IMG/VR virus record: IMGVR_UViG_3300030390_000671
Location: 1-22,878 of that record
Length of the DNA: 22,878 bases
Direction: 5' to 3' (one strand)
Source of the DNA: a virus
Position 1 is the stretch's first letter, and each line of letters starts with the position of its first letter. The translations under genes were made by a program, and so were the position numbers. Below the pieces are notes generated by a model, which was given only the letters and a program-made list of their open reading frames with translations, made no database searches and was not told the origin of the DNA. Shown one piece after another: positions 1,605 to 16,304 of the stretch.

Positions 1605-3509
1605 TTATCCTATTGTTGCTCCTTCAATTGTGTTTCTTTCTAATGCTTGTGCTGAAGTTACTTCACTAGCAACTACAAATGCTTGTATTGGTTGTTGTGA
1701 TTGATTGCCAATTGCATCTGCTAGTTGATTTGTTCCACTAGAACCTACTATATTAAATGCAGGTGGTAATGATGCAGGTGCTGTTGGGGTTGGAATATTA
1801 GGAACTGAAGCAGATGCACCACCTGCTTTAGCCTTAGTTTTAGAAACTGCTTTTTTAACAGACCTTATAATACCTACACCTTGTGCTATAGCACTAGCAA
1901 TAGTAATAAGGTTTTGTGGAAAACCAATCTTAGAACTTTCTGCTACGTTTTGTGATGTAGAAACTGCTGCTGATCCTATTGCTTCAACTCCTTTAAATGT
2001 AATTCTTTTTAAATCCATTATAGTTTCTTTCAATGCTAAACCTTGTTTTATAATTAATAAGGCTTGACCAATTCCAGATTCTGCATCTGCAAATTGTGAT
2101 ATTGCATCTACTACAGCTTTTTTATCTGCTATCTTTTGTTTGTCTAATGCTTCTTCTGCTGCTAATATTTCTGTATCTCTAGTTAAATTTGTTTGTCTAG
2201 ATTGTTCAGAAAATTCATCTAAAGCTATTTGTGCATCAATTTTAGCTTGTGTTCCTGCATTAGCATTATCTACTATGGCTTGAAGCCTAACAGTTTCTTG
2301 TTCTGATTCTAATAAATCAATTTCTTTTAGTGCTTCTAATCTTAACAATTCATCTTGTATTCTTTCTGCATTAAATCTTTTTTGTTCAATAGATAATTTA
2401 CTTTCACTTTCTATTTTAGAATTAATTAGTTCAATTTGTTCTTTGTCTAGTGCTAAATCATTAGATTTTTGTTCTGATCTAAATCCTTCTATTTGTGCTA
2501 AAACTCCTAGCTTTTCATTCCTAGCATCTAATAATGCAATGTAATCTTCATCCTTGCCTGTCAGTTCAAATTGTGCTTCTGCTGCTTTTAATACTGTTTC
2601 AGCATTTGCCAACATTTGTTTTTCTTGTAATTCTAAAACCTTTTTTAATTCGTTGTTAGCTTTTATTCTATCTTCAATACTATTTCTTTCTTCATCTCTA
2701 ATTTGTCTTTGCTGTTCTGCTTGTCTGTCATATTGTTCTATTAAACCTCTAGATTCTGCTGCTGCTATTTCTGCTGATTTTTTTAGTTGAATATTAGTTT
2801 TTGCCACTTCAGATGCTGCTTTTATATTTTCAGCACTAACTGCTTCTGCTGTAATTGCAGCAATATTAGATATTTCACCTACTGCTTCACCAAAATCACT
2901 TACTATGTTTCCTGCTGCATCAGCTACATCTGTACCTATATTTATAAATTCTTGACCAACTTCAGCTAAACCAGATTTTAATTCTGCAATTTTTGTTTCA
3001 TCACCATCACCAAAAAATGATTGTTCCCAAGCTAATTGTGCGCCTAATATTACACCTTTAATAACTTGAAATGCTGCCTTAATAGGTGTTAAAGCAATTG
3101 TTAAAAGGTTAGACATTATTCTACCTAAAGCATCAAAATTCTCGGAGTTACTAAATATTGCATCAGCTACTTGATTAAATATTATTTGTGCAGTATCAAA
3201 AGCAACATTTAAAGAATCCATTACTACTTGGTTTTCCTTTACTGCTTCTGAAATAAATTCAAATGCTTTTTGTAAAATAAACACAACACCAGTTACTTTA
3301 GCAATACTACCAATAGAAGCACTTACTTTTTTTATACCCTCAGAACTTTCTTTAGCACCCTTTTCAACATCTTTTAGCTGATCTTCTGTTTCTTTGTTAG
3401 ATTTTTTAACTTGGTTTTGTAAAGATTTTACTTCTTTTTCAAGCCTTTCAACATTTTTTAGTGCATCTTTTGAATTTAATTCAAATTCTACTTGAATTTT
3501 TTCTGCCAT
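1605..3509 (-). CDS. tail tape measure protein
   Basis: A 634-residue protein with the features of a siphovirus tape measure, which sets tail length and is ejected at infection. The N-terminal 60 residues are a charged coiled coil (for example LKNVERLEKEVKSLQNQVKK). A hydrophobic region follows at about 65-90, and a second at about 135-160. The middle third (about 235-470) is long, Gln/Glu/Lys-rich helix. A further hydrophobic stretch at about 475-555 precedes a Pro/Ala-rich linker and a conserved-looking tail containing AFVVASEVTSAQALERN. At 634 residues it is short; the usual 0.15 nm per residue would give a tail near 95 nm. No lysozyme or peptidase motif was seen. Its ATG lies inside the 50-codon gene 3488-3640, so translation is probably coupled. 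Confidence 0.82.
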   Translation of the reverse strand: MAEKIQVEFELNSKDALKNVERLEKEVKSLQNQVKKSNKETEDQLKDVEKGAKESSEGIKKVSASIGSIAKVTGVVFILQKAFEFISEAVKENQVVMDSLNVAFDTAQIIFNQVADAIFSNSENFDALGRIMSNLLTIALTPIKAAFQVIKGVILGAQLAWEQSFFGDGDETKIAELKSGLAEVGQEFINIGTDVADAAGNIVSDFGEAVGEISNIAAITAEAVSAENIKAASEVAKTNIQLKKSAEIAAAESRGLIEQYDRQAEQQRQIRDEERNSIEDRIKANNELKKVLELQEKQMLANAETVLKAAEAQFELTGKDEDYIALLDARNEKLGVLAQIEGFRSEQKSNDLALDKEQIELINSKIESESKLSIEQKRFNAERIQDELLRLEALKEIDLLESEQETVRLQAIVDNANAGTQAKIDAQIALDEFSEQSRQTNLTRDTEILAAEEALDKQKIADKKAVVDAISQFADAESGIGQALLIIKQGLALKETIMDLKRITFKGVEAIGSAAVSTSQNVAESSKIGFPQNLITIASAIAQGVGIIRSVKKAVSKTKAKAGGASASVPNIPTPTAPASLPPAFNIVGSSGTNQLADAIGNQSQQPIQAFVVASEVTSAQALERNTIEGATIG

Positions 3510-3640
3510 TTTATTTTATTTTTTGTTTGTTTAACACCTTCAGAAAATGATTCTGCTAGTTTATATTTACCTTGTGCAATTCTAATGTTTTCAGATTCAC
3601 CATTTACAATTTTTAATAATTCTAATATATTTTTTATCAT
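3488..3640 (-). CDS. 50-residue protein overlapping the tape measure start
   Basis: This gene encodes 50 residues beginning MIKNILELLKIVNGESENIR and ending KIKWQKKFK. It starts four bases after the stop of the 694-residue tail gene, and its last 22 bases overlap the tape measure start in another frame. Tight packing on both sides supports it as real. The protein is Lys-rich and mostly helical, with no Cys and no membrane segment. Small proteins made just upstream of a tape measure are often tail assembly helpers. No family is recognised, and the frameshift-type chaperone of this phage is elsewhere (7800-8539). Confidence 0.65.
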   Translation of the reverse strand: MIKNILELLKIVNGESENIRIAQGKYKLAESFSEGVKQTKNKIKWQKKFK

Positions 3641-6772: not shown

Positions 6773-7333
6773 CTATTTTTCACCATATACCATTCGACTT
6801 TCTATGTCTGATATAAATGCTTTTGTTAAATCTAATTCGTACTTTTTTATTCCTGCTACAAAAGGTTTAGAAAAAAACAAAGTTGGTTTAATACCAGATA
6901 AATATATACTTCTAGTTATTAAATATTGCATTGTTTTTCTAGGTAAAAATTTACCAGTCTTTTTATCTCGAACACCATCTAGGTTTTTCTTTACAGTCCA
7001 TTTATTAATTGCTGCTCTAAGTCCTTTTGTTTTCATTGCACCAAACTTATAAGGACTATTAGGTGCTTTTTGTTTACCATAATATTTAGCATTTTGTGGT
7101 AATGCATTAGGATTTTTTCCCCTTACACCTTGATCAACAAATTCAGCATAATCAGCCATTAAAAATTCTACAATTAATGCCTGGTTGTCTTCTACTAATT
7201 TATATTTTAAAGAATTATATAAATTTCCACCATTTTTAGGATATGGTTTTGCTTTTGATAAATTAGATTTTGATTGTTGTATAACATACTTTGCATACTC
7301 ATTCATTACAGCTTCTACATTAGGTAAATTCAT
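6773..7333 (-). CDS. HK97 gp10-like head-tail or tail completion protein
   Basis: A 186-residue protein starting MNLPNVEAVMNEYAKYVIQQ. I chose the ATG at 7333 because it forms a TAATG overlap with the stop of the upstream gene; a TTG six bases earlier is a poorer start. The key segment is VEFLMADYAEFVDQGVRGK around residues 50-70, the Y-A-x-F-V-x-x-G signature of gp10-like proteins that finish the neck or tail of siphoviruses. The rest is basic. Position directly after the probable tail terminator fits. The alternative is a generic minor tail protein. Confidence 0.68.
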   Translation of the reverse strand: MNLPNVEAVMNEYAKYVIQQSKSNLSKAKPYPKNGGNLYNSLKYKLVEDNQALIVEFLMADYAEFVDQGVRGKNPNALPQNAKYYGKQKAPNSPYKFGAMKTKGLRAAINKWTVKKNLDGVRDKKTGKFLPRKTMQYLITRSIYLSGIKPTLFFSKPFVAGIKKYELDLTKAFISDIESRMVYGEK

Positions 7334-7803
7334 TAGCAAATATATATATCGTTATAAATTAAAATATCCATAGATACAGACCATCCTGCAAGTTGATTTT
7401 CAAACCTATCAAAGAAAGGATCTAGTGTAGGATTACTATCTATTTGATACATATCCCTATATAATTCACCCATTCTTAAACGTTGTATTAGTCTGTTAAG
7501 GACTGCTAATTGTGTGTTTAAAATATCTTGTTCATTATTGTTTCCTTTAAATCTATCAAATGTAGGTTCTTTAGATTGATCTACAATATCCATTGCAAGA
7601 ACTGTAACATTAAATCTTAATACTTGTTCTTCATCTGTAACACTATTAACTATAATATGAGCCATAGGAAATATGTCTTGTTTATTTAAATTAACATCTG
7701 TAATATCTCCTGATGTTACTGTGTTTATATTTATATCCTGAAGCAATTGTTCTTTAATTGTTTCTGTTAATTGATAATAACCCCTTACACCTTGATTGCT
7801 CAT
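7333..7803 (-). CDS. probable tail terminator or tail completion protein
   Basis: A 156-residue protein. The C-terminal part DPFFDRFENQLAGWSVSMDI followed by an LIYNDIYIC end is the most recognisable section. I recall similar FENQLAGW-type C-termini in small tail proteins of flavobacterial phages. Its size and its place directly before a gp10-like gene match tail terminators, which cap the tail tube and join it to the neck. Its ATG overlaps the stop of the -1 frame of the upstream gene as ATGA (7803-7800). This links its translation to ribosomes that have shifted frame rather than those ending at the zero-frame stop 83 bases earlier. Function is inferred from size and order. Confidence 0.6.
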   Translation of the reverse strand: MSNQGVRGYYQLTETIKEQLLQDININTVTSGDITDVNLNKQDIFPMAHIIVNSVTDEEQVLRFNVTVLAMDIVDQSKEPTFDRFKGNNNEQDILNTQLAVLNRLIQRLRMGELYRDMYQIDSNPTLDPFFDRFENQLAGWSVSMDILIYNDIYIC

Positions 7804-8539
7804 TTTATTTTGTTTTTTATTCTTTTAGCTTCTAAATCATTTTTTTCTTTCATATATTCTAAAGCATAAAGACATTTATGTAATCCTAGTTTAGTGATAT
7901 CTTCAAGTCTTGTAATATCTCCGTTAGCGAGTCCAGAGAAAAGTCCTTGATACCATCCCCATTTTCTTGAAAAATTTGTTGATGCATCGAGTTGTCCATC
8001 CTGTGTTGTTCCAAATAATCCATCATAACTTTCGATAAGTCTATCCCTAAATGATACAAAAAAAAAATTGAACCTAAAACAACATCTAAAGAAACTTCTT
8101 CTAATTTTTCCTTAGAATTAACATCATATTCTTTTATAATATATTTGTCTTGTATTTTATTTTTTATAGGTCTGTATAAAACATTCATAGGAATTAACAT
8201 ATTTTCCCAATCACCAATGTAAGTATCTAAATCAATATATTCACCTAAAGACATTGCATCAAAATCTGGAATTAATCCGTATTCAATATTGTTTAATCTA
8301 AATGTTCTAACAAGATCTGGTTTATTCTCAAACATATTATTTAAAATATGCACTATTTTATCAGCATCAGATAATTTTAAAAGTCTTACTGATTTAGCAT
8401 CAAGATTGCAGAATATCTCTATCATTTTACATTGCAGAAAATAAGCATCTGTATTGTTTTCTTGTATTTTTAAAAACTTTTGATATTGTTTTAAAGATAT
8501 TTCAGCCAAGCTATTTGGAATGATTAATTCTAATTTCAT
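7800..8539 (-). CDS. tail assembly chaperone, predicted -1 frameshift (GT-like) product
   Basis: After the slippery U-run, the -1 frame stays open for 86 codons beyond residue 160, giving a 246-residue fusion. The new part reads FVSFRDRLIESYDGLFGTTQ, then RKWGWYQGLFSGLANGDITR, and ends with a Lys/Glu-rich helix (KEKNDLEAKRIKNKIK). This looks like a folded protein, and the W-G-W-Y and G-D-I-T features match what I recall as small orphan ORFs at this place in related phages. The -1 frame has no good independent ATG near the slip site. Its TGA overlaps the ATG of the next gene (ATGA). Lambda G/GT-type chaperones use the same -1 strategy. The product is inferred, not proven. Confidence 0.7.
7886..8539 (-). 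CDS. tail assembly chaperone, zero-frame (G-like) product
   Basis: The zero-frame product has 217 residues (MKLELIIPNSLAEISLKQYQ start) and ends at a TAG at 7888-7886. It is a soluble, acidic, mostly helical protein. Segments such as RLNNIEYGLIPDFDAMSLGE and YIDLDTYIGDWENMLIPMNV are of a type I recall at the head of flavobacterial phage tail operons. Residue 158 onward reads through a run of ten U (codons ATT TTT TTT TTG), where a -1 shift gives a longer protein (see 7800-8539). By analogy with lambda gpG, the unshifted form would be the abundant chaperone that coats the tape measure protein. A late-promoter-like motif ends one base before the ATG. Confidence 0.75.
   Translation of the reverse strand: MKLELIIPNSLAEISLKQYQKFLKIQENNTDAYFLQCKMIEIFCNLDAKSVRLLKLSDADKIVHILNNMFENKPDLVRTFRLNNIEYGLIPDFDAMSLGEYIDLDTYIGDWENMLIPMNVLYRPIKNKIQDKYIIKEYDVNSKEKLEEVSLDVVLGSIFFLYHLGIDLSKVMMDYLEQHRMDNSMHQQIFQENGDGIKDFSLDSLTEILQDLKISLN
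8060..8066 (-). promoter_or_regulatory. slippery heptamer for -1 frameshift (U UUU UUU)
   Basis: On the minus strand a run of ten T covers 8067-8058. In the zero frame the codons are ATT TTT TTT TTG, so the heptamer T TTT TTT sits in the exact X XXY YYZ register for tandem -1 slippage. The run lies 172 bases before the zero-frame stop. I could not identify a convincing downstream stem-loop by eye. A homopolymer of ten can also cause transcriptional slippage or a sequencing error, which would give the same fusion. Confidence 0.65.
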
Positions 8540-8540
8540 A

Positions 8541-8559
8541 TATATATAACGTATTTAAA
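8541..8559 (-). promoter_or_regulatory. late-promoter-like motif, copy 2 (before tail operon)
   Basis: Minus-strand sequence TTTAAATACGTTATATATA, differing from copy 1 only in the last three bases. It ends one base before the ATG of the tail chaperone and lies downstream of terminator T1. A promoter is needed here if T1 works, because the tail genes would otherwise be cut off from upstream transcription. Confidence 0.6.
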
Positions 8560-8587: not shown

Positions 8588-8617
8588 AAAAAAAGGGCAG
8601 CCATTTCTGACCACCCT
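8588..8617 (-). terminator. rho-independent terminator T1
   Basis: On the minus strand a 10-bp stem (AGGGTGGTCA with TGGCTGCCCT, three G-T wobbles) closes a GAAA tetraloop and runs into seven T. It follows the 48-residue Zn-finger-like gene. A second, upstream inverted repeat (8645-8652 with 8622-8629, eight perfect pairs, GATGTAAG and CTTACATC) encloses a T-rich loop and begins at that gene's stop codon. Confidence 0.85.
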
Positions 8618-9121: not shown

Positions 9122-10330
9122 TTATGAAATATAATATGTTCCCCTATTTGGGTTCTGAAGTTGATATGAAACACTATATCTAATTGCATCAATTAAATGA
9201 TTCCATTTATCTTGTGGTGTCTTAGACTTTTTTTCTAACCAGGAATAGTTATTTAGTTCTTTGATTAAATTAATACTGCTATTATCAATTACTAAATCAT
9301 AGTCTTGTAATAGTGATATACCATAAGTTATAGATCCTTGACCTTTTATAGCTTTAACTACATTACACCCTTTAGCTTTTATTTCTGATAGTAATCTAGG
9401 TTCAGCAGAATCACCTACTATTAAATGGTCTTTTGCGTGTTTCATATTTAGTAAAGCTATTTCAGAAGTTGTTAAGCCTTTTAAATAAAAACATTCTTTT
9501 AAATATATAATTTTGTTTGTGTTGTCAATATTGGTTTCTACTAATGTAGATTCATCAGCAGCAAATCCATAATCTTGACCGAACACAGAAACACCTACTT
9601 TTTTAAATTGTCCTATTTTCCAATTATTAAATATTACACCCTCTGCTTTTGCTAACCATCCACCAAGCATTTGATGTTTGTATTTTTCTGGTCTGCGTTT
9701 CTTAATGTTTTCTATTTGGTTTAAATAGCTACTAGATAGATTATCTATATTATCTAAATAAGTTGTGTGTATATATGTGGTATTGTCTTTTGTTGTGTTG
9801 CTGCCATCCATTACACCTTTATCTTCAAAGAACCTATTATATATCCAATGTTCTTTTGTTACAGGATTAAGTATCATTATAACTCTGTTTCGTTGTTTAA
9901 GGTTTCTGACAGACAAATCTATTTTATCAAATATGTTTTCATCTACAAGTTCTTCTGCTTCATCCATAACCCAAGTGCTAACATTAGTTAAAGACTTTAG
10001 GTTAGCTGTTTGATCTCCTGATGATGTTTTGATACCTTTAAATAATATCTTACTACCAGACCTTTTATTTATGATTTCATCTTTAGTTATATGAAAGTCG
10101 TTTTCAATTTTAAGGGTTTCTATCTTGTCTATAAATTCTGGTATTATAGAAATATATGCAGATGCTAATGTAAACCTGGTAAATAGTATTGTATGCCCTG
10201 CTTCATAGGTTAGCAAAACTAATAATAAGTTAATTGAAAAAGATTTACCAGAACCTCGACCACCAGTTACTATAAAGTATCTTGAATCAGCTTGTGTTAT
10301 AGGACTGTACTTTTTATCTACTTCAATCAC
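9122..10330 (-). CDS. terminase large subunit (PBSX-type)
   Basis: The 402-residue motor protein cuts concatemeric DNA and pumps it into proheads. The ATPase half has Walker A GGRGSGKS (23-30), Walker B STWVMDEAEE with Asp123-Glu124, and a coupling motif MILNPVT (152-158). The RNase H-like nuclease half has Asp253 in GQDYGF, Asp307 in GDSAEP and Asp381 in LIDAIRYS, the expected acidic triad. Length and motif order match PBSX-type (Terminase_3) proteins. The start codon is GTG at 10330, overlapping the small subunit stop as GTGA; no in-frame ATG lies nearby. It is followed not by a portal gene but by the P1 unit and tail genes, which is unusual. Confidence 0.95.
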   Translation of the reverse strand: MIEVDKKYSPITQADSRYFIVTGGRGSGKSFSINLLLVLLTYEAGHTILFTRFTLASAYISIIPEFIDKIETLKIENDFHITKDEIINKRSGSKILFKGIKTSSGDQTANLKSLTNVSTWVMDEAEELVDENIFDKIDLSVRNLKQRNRVIMILNPVTKEHWIYNRFFEDKGVMDGSNTTKDNTTYIHTTYLDNIDNLSSSYLNQIENIKKRRPEKYKHQMLGGWLAKAEGVIFNNWKIGQFKKVGVSVFGQDYGFAADESTLVETNIDNTNKIIYLKECFYLKGLTTSEIALLNMKHAKDHLIVGDSAEPRLLSEIKAKGCNVVKAIKGQGSITYGISLLQDYDLVIDNSSINLIKELNNYSWLEKKSKTPQDKWNHLIDAIRYSVSYQLQNPNRGTYYIS

Positions 10331-10623: not shown

Positions 10624-10642
10624 ATTATATAACGTAATTAAA
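10624..10642 (-). promoter_or_regulatory. late-promoter-like motif, copy 3 (before terminase genes)
   Basis: Minus-strand sequence TTTAATTACGTTATATAAT, one base different from copy 1. It overlaps the last codon of the methyltransferase gene and is 43 bases (first T of TACGTTAT) from the terminase small subunit ATG, so the leader is longer than for copies 1 and 2. Confidence 0.55.
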
Positions 10643-11981
10643 TTACTTTTTTAATTCTTTCTGCTACAGCTTTAACAACATCTACTGTTACAGCATTACC
10701 ACACATCTTATATCTTTGTGAATCTGATATTGTTCCTAGTTCTTTTCCTGTCTTAGTCCAGTCATCTGGAAAACCTTGTAGTCGTTCACATTCAATAGGT
10801 GTTAATCTTCTTATTTTATTATCTAACACAGCTTGGTTACAAGCAGTATCTAAAGTTTGTGCAACACCTTTTCCAATTCTACCTCTACGAGTTTTTGAAG
10901 TAGGTACTGCATAATTTATACTATCTCCTTTCTTTACTGTTTCATATCCTTTCTTATTGTTTGTTTTTATCATAATTCTTTCATCTGCTGATTCTTTTGT
11001 TAAAGTAGGTGCTATTCCATCACTATCATAAACACGATTTGTTTTTTCATAAGTTCCAGGAATTTGAATAAAAGTTGTTATAGCTTTATCATATTTATTT
11101 TCTGTTATATTTAAAACATCTTTTAATTTAAACCAAATTTCAGCAGGTGGAATACTAAACCACTTTTCTCCATTTCTAAACCAATGTTCGACTTGACTAT
11201 AAGGAAAATTCATTTCTTTGCTTATTTGTTTTATTGATTTTGTTTTGTGTTTTCTTAAGAATAATCTAAGTTCTTTAGTATTTATATCATACTTTCTTTT
11301 TTTTACTGTTTCAGGAATATCGTGTGTAATTATTTTTTGTGCATTGAGTTTACGTTTAATAATGTAGCTTCCGTTTCCCTCATTTCTGTAACTGGCTGTG
11401 AGTGTATTGGTGTTTGTTTGTTGTCTTTGTAACTCATTAATCTTTTTATTGCTTTCTGTGATAGGAAATACTGGTTTTCCACTTCCGTTTGCAATATATC
11501 CGACAAGGTAGATTCTCTGTCTATTTTGGGGTAAAAACCACTTTGTATTAAGCAGTTGCCATTCAAGTCTATAACCCCCAATGTTGGTAAAGGCTTGGAT
11601 AATTGCCCAAAAGTCTGAGCCAGAGTTTGAGGAGAAAGTTCCTTTAACATTTTCCCAGATAAAAAAACGTGGTCTGCATTCTTTGATAAGCCTAATTGCT
11701 TCGGTAATAAGACTTGATCTTTCCCCATCCATTCCTTTTCTTTTTCCTGCCAGGCTAAAGTCTTGACAAGGACTTCCGAAAGTGATAACATCGATTCTTG
11801 GTAAGTTCCTTCCTTGAACATCTGTAATTGATTTGACATAAGTACTATTTTTAAAATTATGTTTATATACATCTATTGCATACTTATCTATTTCTGAATA
11901 GTATGTGTGTTTTATATTAAATACTTTTTTTAGACCTAAACTAAAACCCCCAATTCCACTAAATAAATCTAAGTGATTCAT
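10638..11981 (-). CDS. DNA (cytosine-5) methyltransferase with internal HTH-like insert
   Basis: A 447-residue C5 methyltransferase that transfers a methyl group from S-adenosylmethionine to cytosine. Motif I is LDLFSGIGGF (4-13). Motif IV is GSPCQDFS with catalytic Cys72, motif VI is WENVKG (109-114), motif VIII is PQNRQRIYLVG (151-161), motif IX is RRLTPIECERLQGFP (from 391), and motif X is MCGNAVTV (426-433). All catalytic motifs are present. The variable region holds an insert at about 234-291 (KTKSIKQISKEMNFPYSQVE, then HWFR) that reads as a helix-turn-helix and probably contributes to target recognition. With no restriction enzyme nearby it is best read as an orphan phage enzyme that protects DNA. 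A long +1-frame ORF runs inside it (11330-11872). Confidence 0.95.
   Translation of the reverse strand: MNHLDLFSGIGGFSLGLKKVFNIKHTYYSEIDKYAIDVYKHNFKNSTYVKSITDVQGRNLPRIDVITFGSPCQDFSLAGKRKGMDGERSSLITEAIRLIKECRPRFFIWENVKGTFSSNSGSDFWAIIQAFTNIGGYRLEWQLLNTKWFLPQNRQRIYLVGYIANGSGKPVFPITESNKKINELQRQQTNTNTLTASYRNEGNGSYIIKRKLNAQKIITHDIPETVKKRKYDINTKELRLFLRKHKTKSIKQISKEMNFPYSQVEHWFRNGEKWFSIPPAEIWFKLKDVLNITENKYDKAITTFIQIPGTYEKTNRVYDSDGIAPTLTKESADERIMIKTNNKKGYETVKKGDSINYAVPTSKTRRGRIGKGVAQTLDTACNQAVLDNKIRRLTPIECERLQGFPDDWTKTGKELGTISDSQRYKMCGNAVTVDVVKAVAERIKKVI
11330..11872 (-). CDS. possible overlapping gene in the +1 frame of the methyltransferase
   Basis: A same-strand, +1-frame ORF of 180 codons lies wholly inside the methyltransferase gene, over its residues 37-217, ending just before the HTH-like insert. 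It has ATGs at 11872 and 11839; the latter gives MSNQLQMFKEGTYQESMLSL. Later segments LPTLGVIDLNGNCLIQSGFY, STLSDIL and NQYFLSQKAIKRLMSYKDNK look protein-like. I recall phage proteins with an L-S-D-I-L then Y-F-L-S-x-K-A pattern near or over C5 methyltransferases, but cannot confirm it here. An open frame this long is unlikely by chance in such AT-rich DNA. It may still be a shadow shaped by the conserved methyltransferase codons. Confidence 0.3.
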   Translation of the reverse strand: MYINIILKIVLMSNQLQMFKEGTYQESMLSLSEVLVKTLAWQEKEKEWMGKDQVLLPKQLGLSKNADHVFLSGKMLKELSPQTLAQTFGQLSKPLPTLGVIDLNGNCLIQSGFYPKIDRESTLSDILQTEVENQYFLSQKAIKRLMSYKDNKQTPIHSQPVTEMRETEATLLNVNSMHKK

Positions 11982-15367: not shown

Positions 15368-15834
15368 ATTATTTTATTTAGGTGTGTTTTGTTTACTATA
15401 TATGTTTCACCATATCCAAAATCTTTTGTTTCTTTTAATTCATCAAATTTATTTCTTGATATTGATCCAACCAATTCTACTATGGGTAATTGCAACCAAG
15501 CTAATACATAACTATCAGCTTTTTTTCTTTCATATTGTTTTTTAAACATTAAAAGATTTGGTCGATATTTAGAAGTAGATGTTTTAACATCAACACCATT
15601 ATCAAAGTCAGTTCCATCATCACCCCTACCTATAATAGATATATCAATTTTTTTGCCAGAATATATAGAATAAGCTAATTCACCTAAAACTCCAACATAA
15701 TGTCTATGCCATCCTTCTTTATCTTTAAAGCAGTTAATACTGTTTTTAGTTTCTGCGTGGTTTTTTGAGCCTGATCTTTTCATTGCTAAGTCTTTACACC
15801 ATTGCATTTGTTCTGTAGTTAGTTTAATTTTCAT
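15364..15834 (-). CDS. PD-(D/E)XK nuclease-fold protein
   Basis: A 156-residue protein with a restriction-endonuclease-like layout: GVLGELAYSIYSG (48-60, Glu52), GRGDDGTDFDNGVDVKTSTS (69-88) with Asp76 or Asp78 and the Asp82-x-Lys84 pair, then a conserved strand-helix section (SYVLAWLQL, VELVGSIS). This is the E...D...DxK order expected of the PD-(D/E)XK fold. Possible roles are a resolvase, a nuclease acting on host DNA, or a DNA-modification partner. It starts with an ATGA overlap from the sigma-like gene and ends with one into the 28-residue gene. Confidence 0.7.
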   Translation of the reverse strand: MKIKLTTEQMQWCKDLAMKRSGSKNHAETKNSINCFKDKEGWHRHYVGVLGELAYSIYSGKKIDISIIGRGDDGTDFDNGVDVKTSTSKYRPNLLMFKKQYERKKADSYVLAWLQLPIVELVGSISRNKFDELKETKDFGYGETYIVNKTHLNKII

Positions 15835-16304
15835 AACAACTTTTTTAGTTTGTCTTTTACTTTGTTGTATGTGTTGTAAAGTGAATAATATTGTATATAA
15901 GATTTCCTGGAAAACTCAGCAATACTTTCACCAGAATTAATAATTTCAAATACCTTTCTATCATACCAATACATTTTAGATAGTTCTTCTTTTACTTTAT
16001 CATAACTTTCAGTATAATTTACATCATTGTTAGTCAAGTGTACATTGTCTAATGGTATCATTGATATGTTTTTGCCTTTTCGTTTTAAGTCAAGAAATAA
16101 AGTTCTAAGTGTTTTAAATATATAATAATAATTAATTTCATCATTATACATTATATCTAAACCTTTTTCTAATTTAAGTTGAATTTTGATATACATTTCT
16201 TGTGTGATATCTTCAGCAGTTCTTTTATTGCATCCAAAAGACATTACAATATCAATCCAGGTATTGTGTTTTTTTGCTACAAGAATCATTTTATTTTTAA
16301 CCAT
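15831..16304 (-). CDS. sigma-70-family-like transcription factor
   Basis: A 157-residue protein with the layout of a small sigma factor. Residues 28-75 (KRTAEDITQEMYIKIQLKLE, then YYYIFKTLRTLFLDLKRKGK) match region 2, where A-E-D-I-x-Q-E-x-Y-x-K-I is the core-binding and -10-recognition signature. Residues 110-157 (YDRKVFEIINSGESIAEFSR and a basic end) fit region 4 with a helix-turn-helix. It would redirect host RNA polymerase to phage promoters, probably the late motif at 1572, 8541 and 10624; that link is inference. It overlaps the ATPase gene by eight bases and the nuclease-like gene by four. Confidence 0.72.
   Translation of the reverse strand: MVKNKMILVAKKHNTWIDIVMSFGCNKRTAEDITQEMYIKIQLKLEKGLDIMYNDEINYYYIFKTLRTLFLDLKRKGKNISMIPLDNVHLTNNDVNYTESYDKVKEELSKMYWYDRKVFEIINSGESIAEFSRKSYIQYYSLYNTYNKVKDKLKKLL

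Follow-up and report, generated by a model that had tools for sequence, protein, structure and literature searches.

A conserved U-run and two selected C-terminal reading frames in a putative tail-assembly gene of marine phages

Results

Gene with two C-terminal reading frames

The window analysed here is the whole of IMG/VR virus record IMGVR_UViG_3300030390_000671 (22,878 bases), which, judged by its terminase, comes from a tailed phage. On its minus strand lies a gene whose open reading frame (ORF) of 217 amino acids (aa), the 0-frame, is crossed by a run of ten T (U10 in the transcript) flanked as 5' CAA-T10-GTA (Table 1). The -1 frame is open from this run as far as a TGA at 7802-7800. 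A -1 slip at the heptamer U UUU UUU would produce a fusion of 246 aa, consisting of 160 shared residues and 86 additional ones that include RKWGWYQGLFSGLANGDITR. A first-pass annotation had placed the end of the 0-frame, the heptamer and the 86 added codons with RKWGWYQGLFSGLANGDITR exactly so, and had the extended frame stop at an ATGA shared with the start of the next gene; all of these coordinates are confirmed. The conserved 0-frame tail past the run is absent from that annotation. The gene is very likely recoded into two products, of 217 and 246 aa.

Table 1. Positions of the described features in the window (minus-strand features; position 1 is the first letter of the window)
Feature	Position	Strand	Basis
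0-frame ORF, 217 aa: folded core (residues 1-165) and alternative C-terminal tail	7886..8539	-	ORF translation, AlphaFold2, conserved in 450 loci
T10 (U10) slip run, T1-T10 = 8067-8058	8058..8067	-	9-12 T in 317/317 unique sites
In-frame heptamer U UUU UUU inside the T10 run	8066-8060	-	sequence
-1 frame extension, 86 aa + TGA, predicted all-helical, contains RKWGWYQGLFSGLANGDITR	7800..8060	-	conserved in 103-row alignment
Dual-coding overlap of 0-frame tail and -1 extension, both read and both selected	7886..8057	-	synonymous-resampling tests
ATGA: -1 frame stop overlapping the next gene's start	7800..7803	-	sequence
Intrinsic terminator just upstream of the gene	8594..8617	-	similar sequence in relatives
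Promoter-like CGTTATA, -12 from the ATG	8545..8551	-	conserved in relatives
Next gene, 156 aa, phrog_30964 (function unknown)	7333..7803	-	PHROGs
188-aa protein, possibly tail completion/Neck1	6773..7339	-	2/35 relatives match phrog_5
Tape measure protein, 634 aa	1605..3509	-	BLASTP E 1e-15 to the 647-aa Flagellimonas prophage protein
50-aa ORF directly before the tape measure gene and overlapping its start, unannotated	3488..3640	-	conserved in relatives
Terminase large subunit, upstream of the pair	9122..10330	-	family match

Relatives of the gene were collected from viral contigs, species genomes and phage records. Both parts of the gene are readable in 450 loci, 317 of them unique at the site, and protein identity ranges from 95% for the closest relative to 26-27% for the most distant. 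The second frame lies at -1 to the first in all 450 loci and starts at the T-run in the same place, so that the register of the run and the -1 frame are conserved together; with agreement on this scale, the -1 relation at T9-12 is not due to chance. The run measures nine T in 179 of the unique sites, ten in 133, eleven in one and twelve in four, and the in-frame heptamer is present in every one of them by construction. Runs of seven or eight T, or any other slippery sequence, take its place in none of the 450 loci, and in no relative does the length of the run let one frame read through. All 317 sites thus carry what transcriptional slippage sites require, a homopolymeric A/T run of about nine or more with its length kept. 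The carriers are a large group of mostly uncultured marine phages. The same arrangement is found in an isolate, Nonlabens phage P12024L (T9), and in a prophage of the cultured Flagellimonas onchidii XY-359; single-protein searches of a collection of 50,697 phage records gave matches to Nonlabens phages P12024S and P12024L only.

Selection on both frames

Past the run the 0-frame remains open for a median of 56 codons, and among complete sites its tail falls below 50 codons only in P12024L (24) and in locus L156 (6). Constraint on the overlap was assessed in 104 representatives (85% clusters) by redrawing synonymous codons with one of the two proteins held fixed. With the -1 protein held, the 0-frame was open in 1.4% of draws (1.4 of 104 representatives expected, 104 observed); with the 0-frame protein held, the -1 frame was open in 0.8% (0.8 expected, again 104 observed). 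For the 0-frame, pairwise identity is 0.498 where the -1 protein by itself would predict 0.305; for the -1 frame it is 0.568 where the 0-frame by itself would predict 0.255. In 895 of 895 pairs, identity in either frame is higher than the other frame would impose. An effect of this size leaves little doubt that both products are made, despite the shared descent of the representatives. Since both C-termini are selected, the unshifted tail is a functional part of its protein rather than read-through to the nearest stop. The novelty of the present gene is this additional opening of the 0-frame for about 55 codons beyond the run, with selection acting on both frames: the long selected overlap shows that the 'tail' left by a frameshift can be functional. 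The -1 frame, for its part, has an ATG ahead of its conserved WGWY motif in only 2 of 106 representatives, at different places, so an independent start is not the rule.

AlphaFold2 models of the 0-frame protein built with 103 relatives assign residues 11-160 a predicted local distance difference test score (pLDDT) of about 92 and most of residues 171-217 a score below 60. The last helix of the core (151-190) is predicted to contain the slip site, and the folded core to end there. The -1 domain is predicted with moderate confidence (pLDDT 74) to be all-helical, and both tails are mostly helical in the predicted structures.

Agent of the frameshift

Slippage of the ribosome by -1 and slippage of RNA polymerase adding one U yield identical proteins and are not separated here. 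We lean slightly towards the polymerase on account of the nine-T floor, the lack of downstream RNA structure and the strong avoidance of T-runs of at least eight without avoidance of the seven-T heptamer. Polymerase slipping on the T-run would add one U to part of the mRNAs, whose -1 frame would then be read by ordinary ribosomes; we hold this to have nearly an even chance of being correct. The in-frame heptamer needs only seven T, and yet all 317 unique sites have at least nine, the length of A/T runs at which selection against slippage becomes evident in many bacteria (PMC1088944). In the nine unique sites where the run is followed by C, the codon before the two TTT codons is always TTT, and the run is kept at nine. 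This state has only two independent origins on the tree, too few for deciding whether the two ends of the run compensate each other, and the T at run positions 1 and 9 can also be explained by hydrophobic or aromatic codons in both frames.

Run lengths were also counted in 583 kb of other coding sequence from these loci, with expectations taken from synonymous shuffling. T-runs of at least eight are eight-fold rarer than expected (5 against 40, one of the five apparently preceding the likely start of its ORF), whereas in-frame T7 heptamers are hardly avoided (66 against 93); the heptamer alone is therefore tolerated and longer U-runs are not. The avoidance of long T-runs might reflect slippage in replication, though A-runs of at least eight are only two-fold rarer than expected (78 against 165). 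Folding z-scores of 106 representatives reveal no RNA structure above background 2-30 nt downstream of the run or just upstream of it, pseudoknots being outside the model. Two other origins of the run were considered. A terminator at the slip run was rejected, there being no stem just upstream and the real terminator lying upstream of the gene. The run is also unlikely to be the by-product of a Phe-rich stretch: TTC makes up 22.5% of Phe codons upstream and none of 634 in the run, a count to be read with the caveat that the -1 frame constrains these bases as well.

Classical ribosomal -1 frameshifting at U UUU UUU, as in lambda G/GT, is a credible explanation that we place somewhat below even. 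A heptamer of the X XXY YYZ form, composed of U, is in frame at every site by construction, and the tail chaperones known so far shift by -1 on the ribosome (PMC5009743). Nine T could also arise from the heptamer together with flanking hydrophobic and aromatic residues conserved in both frames. Against the ribosome speak the lack of a stimulatory structure, which not every bacterial site requires, the tolerance of the same heptamer in other genes, and the fact that a family diverged to 26% identity has kept to its U-run, with neither another slippery heptamer nor a run of seven or eight in its place. Of the ribosomal -1 frameshifting assumed by the first-pass annotation, there is strong support for a -1 fusion made at the U-run, while for the agent itself polymerase slippage fits the length floor somewhat better.

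Control of tail length requires a set ratio of the two chaperone forms. To our knowledge, this ratio is set by the ribosome in the known cases. In the literature covered, which leaves out most subscription journals, we came across no description of this U-run site and no phage tail gene reported to use transcriptional slippage. A/T runs of slip length are also present in Shigella spa13 and mxiE and in bacterial insertion sequence (IS) elements (PMC5009743, PMC1088944), and spa13 shares with the present gene a C-terminal extension overlapping the start of the next gene. Unlike these, the present site lies in a putative phage tail gene and its unshifted tail is conserved too, transcriptional slippage being a candidate mechanism only. 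We tentatively propose, as a joint interpretation with rather less than an even chance of holding in all its parts, a tail-assembly gene, shared across a large family of marine Bacteroidota phages, in which slippage of RNA polymerase on a fixed T9-12 run rather than the ribosome determines the ratio of short to long form and two C-termini are dual-coded over about 55 codons. Because the site in hundreds of phages is a pure U-run never shorter than nine, the choice between polymerase and ribosome is directly testable in cultured hosts, such as the host of P12024L or the Flagellimonas lysogen.

Gene neighbourhood

In loci that are long enough the gene order is mostly conserved: terL, zero to a few genes, the two-frame pair, genes for proteins of about 155, 180, 345 and 700 aa, a small ORF and the tape measure gene. 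The tape measure protein of the window is identified by its alignment to a 647-aa protein of the Flagellimonas prophage, which matches phrog_339, tail length tape measure (8.6e-9). The separation of the pair from the tape measure gene is real and family-wide, as first annotated, except that the four intervening genes become five ORFs when the conserved 50-aa ORF (3640-3488) is counted. An ORF of 42-54 aa is found at the same place in the examined relatives of this layout, and not in P12024L. Genes for capsid- and tail-tube-like proteins follow the tape measure gene. The structural cassette of the Flagellimonas onchidii prophage (locus L236, 8674-20654) is permuted, running from terL through the chaperone-like pair, the tail genes and the tape measure gene to protease, capsid-like, tail-tube-like and portal genes, of which the capsid-like and tail-tube-like ones were recognised by eye only.

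Of 106 representatives, 60 have the -1 stop overlapping the start of the following gene in an ATGA (-1 offset) and 22 in a TAATG, which makes translational coupling to that gene plausible: ribosomes reading the shifted frame would terminate at its start codon and may contribute to its translation. The identification of that gene as the tail terminator, made in the first-pass annotation, is unsupported, since library searches returned no family match to a tail terminator.

Discussion

Function of the two products

The best explanation of the locus as a whole, to which we give good though not full confidence, is a two-product gene with a shared core, a slip at U9-12 and a role as tail chaperone. 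A single gene would supply an unshifted form of 217 aa and a -1 shifted form of 246 aa bearing a helical C-terminal domain, both built on the same folded core of 160 residues, with the two C-termini encoded in two frames of the same stretch of about 55 codons. By analogy with lambda gpG/gpGT, the shared core would form a coat on the tape measure protein, with the extended, less abundant form recruiting the tail tube protein; the level of slippage, itself dependent on run length, would set the ratio of the two forms. A tail assembly chaperone of the lambda G/GT kind is likely the role of the gene, on the grounds of its recoding pattern and operon rather than of homology, and membership in that group is not established. 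The comparative evidence of 450 loci and of dual-frame selection points to two products with a common N-terminus, generated by recoding towards the end of the first ORF, as G and GT are.

Several results weigh against this assignment. The gene has no match in Pfam or NCBIfam, and PDB fold searches of both parts gave no useful match. The BFVD matches of the core span a wide range of phage proteins that are uncharacterised, and the chaperone-named ones are weak: the first functionally named one, 'tail assembly chaperone protein', has an E-value of 0.11 and another 0.69. The gene does not lie between the major tail protein and tape measure genes, directly upstream of the latter, where G/GT are found. 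The 217- and 246-aa products are predictions from sequence, and the representatives share descent, so the counts above are of non-independent events. In PHROGs, all 103 relatives fall into phrog_32199, of unknown function, with 14 also giving a weak match to phrog_166, 'tail protein' (best 1.3e-4). The chaperone named in the first-pass annotation therefore stands as plausible by architecture and operon context, with no family or PDB match, a PHROG of unknown function and one weak structural match.

The present gene resembles lambda G/GT, reviewed with their counterparts in other long-tailed phages in PMC5009743, in its tail operon and in an extension ending at the start of the next gene. It differs in its homopolymeric site of U9-12 in every relative, in its position after terL and five ORFs before the tape measure gene, in the lack of detectable homology, and in a selected 0-frame that runs about 55 codons beyond the slip. 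Annotated SEA-PHAGES shifts have a mean distance to the stop of 26 nt (PMC10885494); scans that expect the 0-frame stop near the slip site, as in the PRFect training set with this mean, likely miss such genes.

A recoded gene that makes both products for another purpose, such as a packaging- or neck-related factor, is the less likely reading. The position after terL, at a distance from the tape measure gene in all lineages examined, and the lack of chaperone homology would suit such a factor; the gene nevertheless shares its operon with neck- or tail-completion-like genes and the tape measure gene, no rival candidate for a chaperone pair is seen beside the latter, and shifts of the G/GT type are typical of tail chaperones.

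It is very improbable that the two frames are separate genes, the -1 ORF having its own internal start. Such is the annotation of Nonlabens (Persicivirga) phages P12024L/S (JQ823123, JQ823122), whose homologous pair ORF40 and ORF41 stands directly after terL, with the -1 relation at T9 in P12024L, and is given as two unrelated hypothetical proteins with an internal ATG for ORF41. P12024L does have a -1 frame ATG at the 0-frame stop, and its 0-frame tail is 24 codons long, not about 55. An own start for the -1 frame, conserved among relatives, is rejected on its rarity and shifting place among the lineages, and conserved -1 coding begins at the run itself. The least probable reading, hardly worth entertaining for all that homopolymers are error-prone, is a sequencing or assembly error or a decayed gene, already refuted by relatives: the same arrangement recurs in hundreds of separately assembled sequences, in isolate phages and in a prophage, and selection acts on both frames.

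Flavobacterium phage 6H encodes a distant structural relative of the 0-frame protein (locus L307, 10030-10927, minus strand). Downstream of it the reading frames seem to be disrupted or shifted twice, which may stem from another recoding site or a sequencing error. As the frames near the 0-frame end are not joinable by one clean -1 shift, phage 6H was left out.

Promoter-like element and other observations

The terminator (8617-8594) and the CGTTATA at -12 together suggest a separate transcription unit that begins with the pair. CGTTA stands at exactly -12 in 141 of 307 relatives, against an occurrence within 35 nt in 20 of 742 other ORF starts, and the window contains five CGTTATA where 0.97 are expected. 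An element of the form AAAA-N12/13-TAAWTACGTTATA lies exactly 12 nt ahead of both the chaperone-like gene and an XkdF-like protease gene (minus strand), and the same element is found upstream of the gene before terL; the window sites are 8545-8551, 1576-1582 and 10628-10634 (minus strand). The CGTTATA element is possibly a late promoter of the phage, from which mRNAs with almost no leader would arise.

The protein encoded at 15831-16304 (minus strand) resembles a small phage sigma factor by eye, with no Pfam match in the window, and is a possible reader of the CGTTATA element. A gene in a similar place of the Flagellimonas prophage (L236, 7165-7683) gives a weak match to sigma-70 region 4 (E 0.027); the annotation of P12024L_35 names sigma-70 region 2. 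Elsewhere in the window, a 180-aa ORF at 11330-11981 (minus strand) lies out of frame within a 447-aa DNA methyltransferase-like ORF and is probably spurious.
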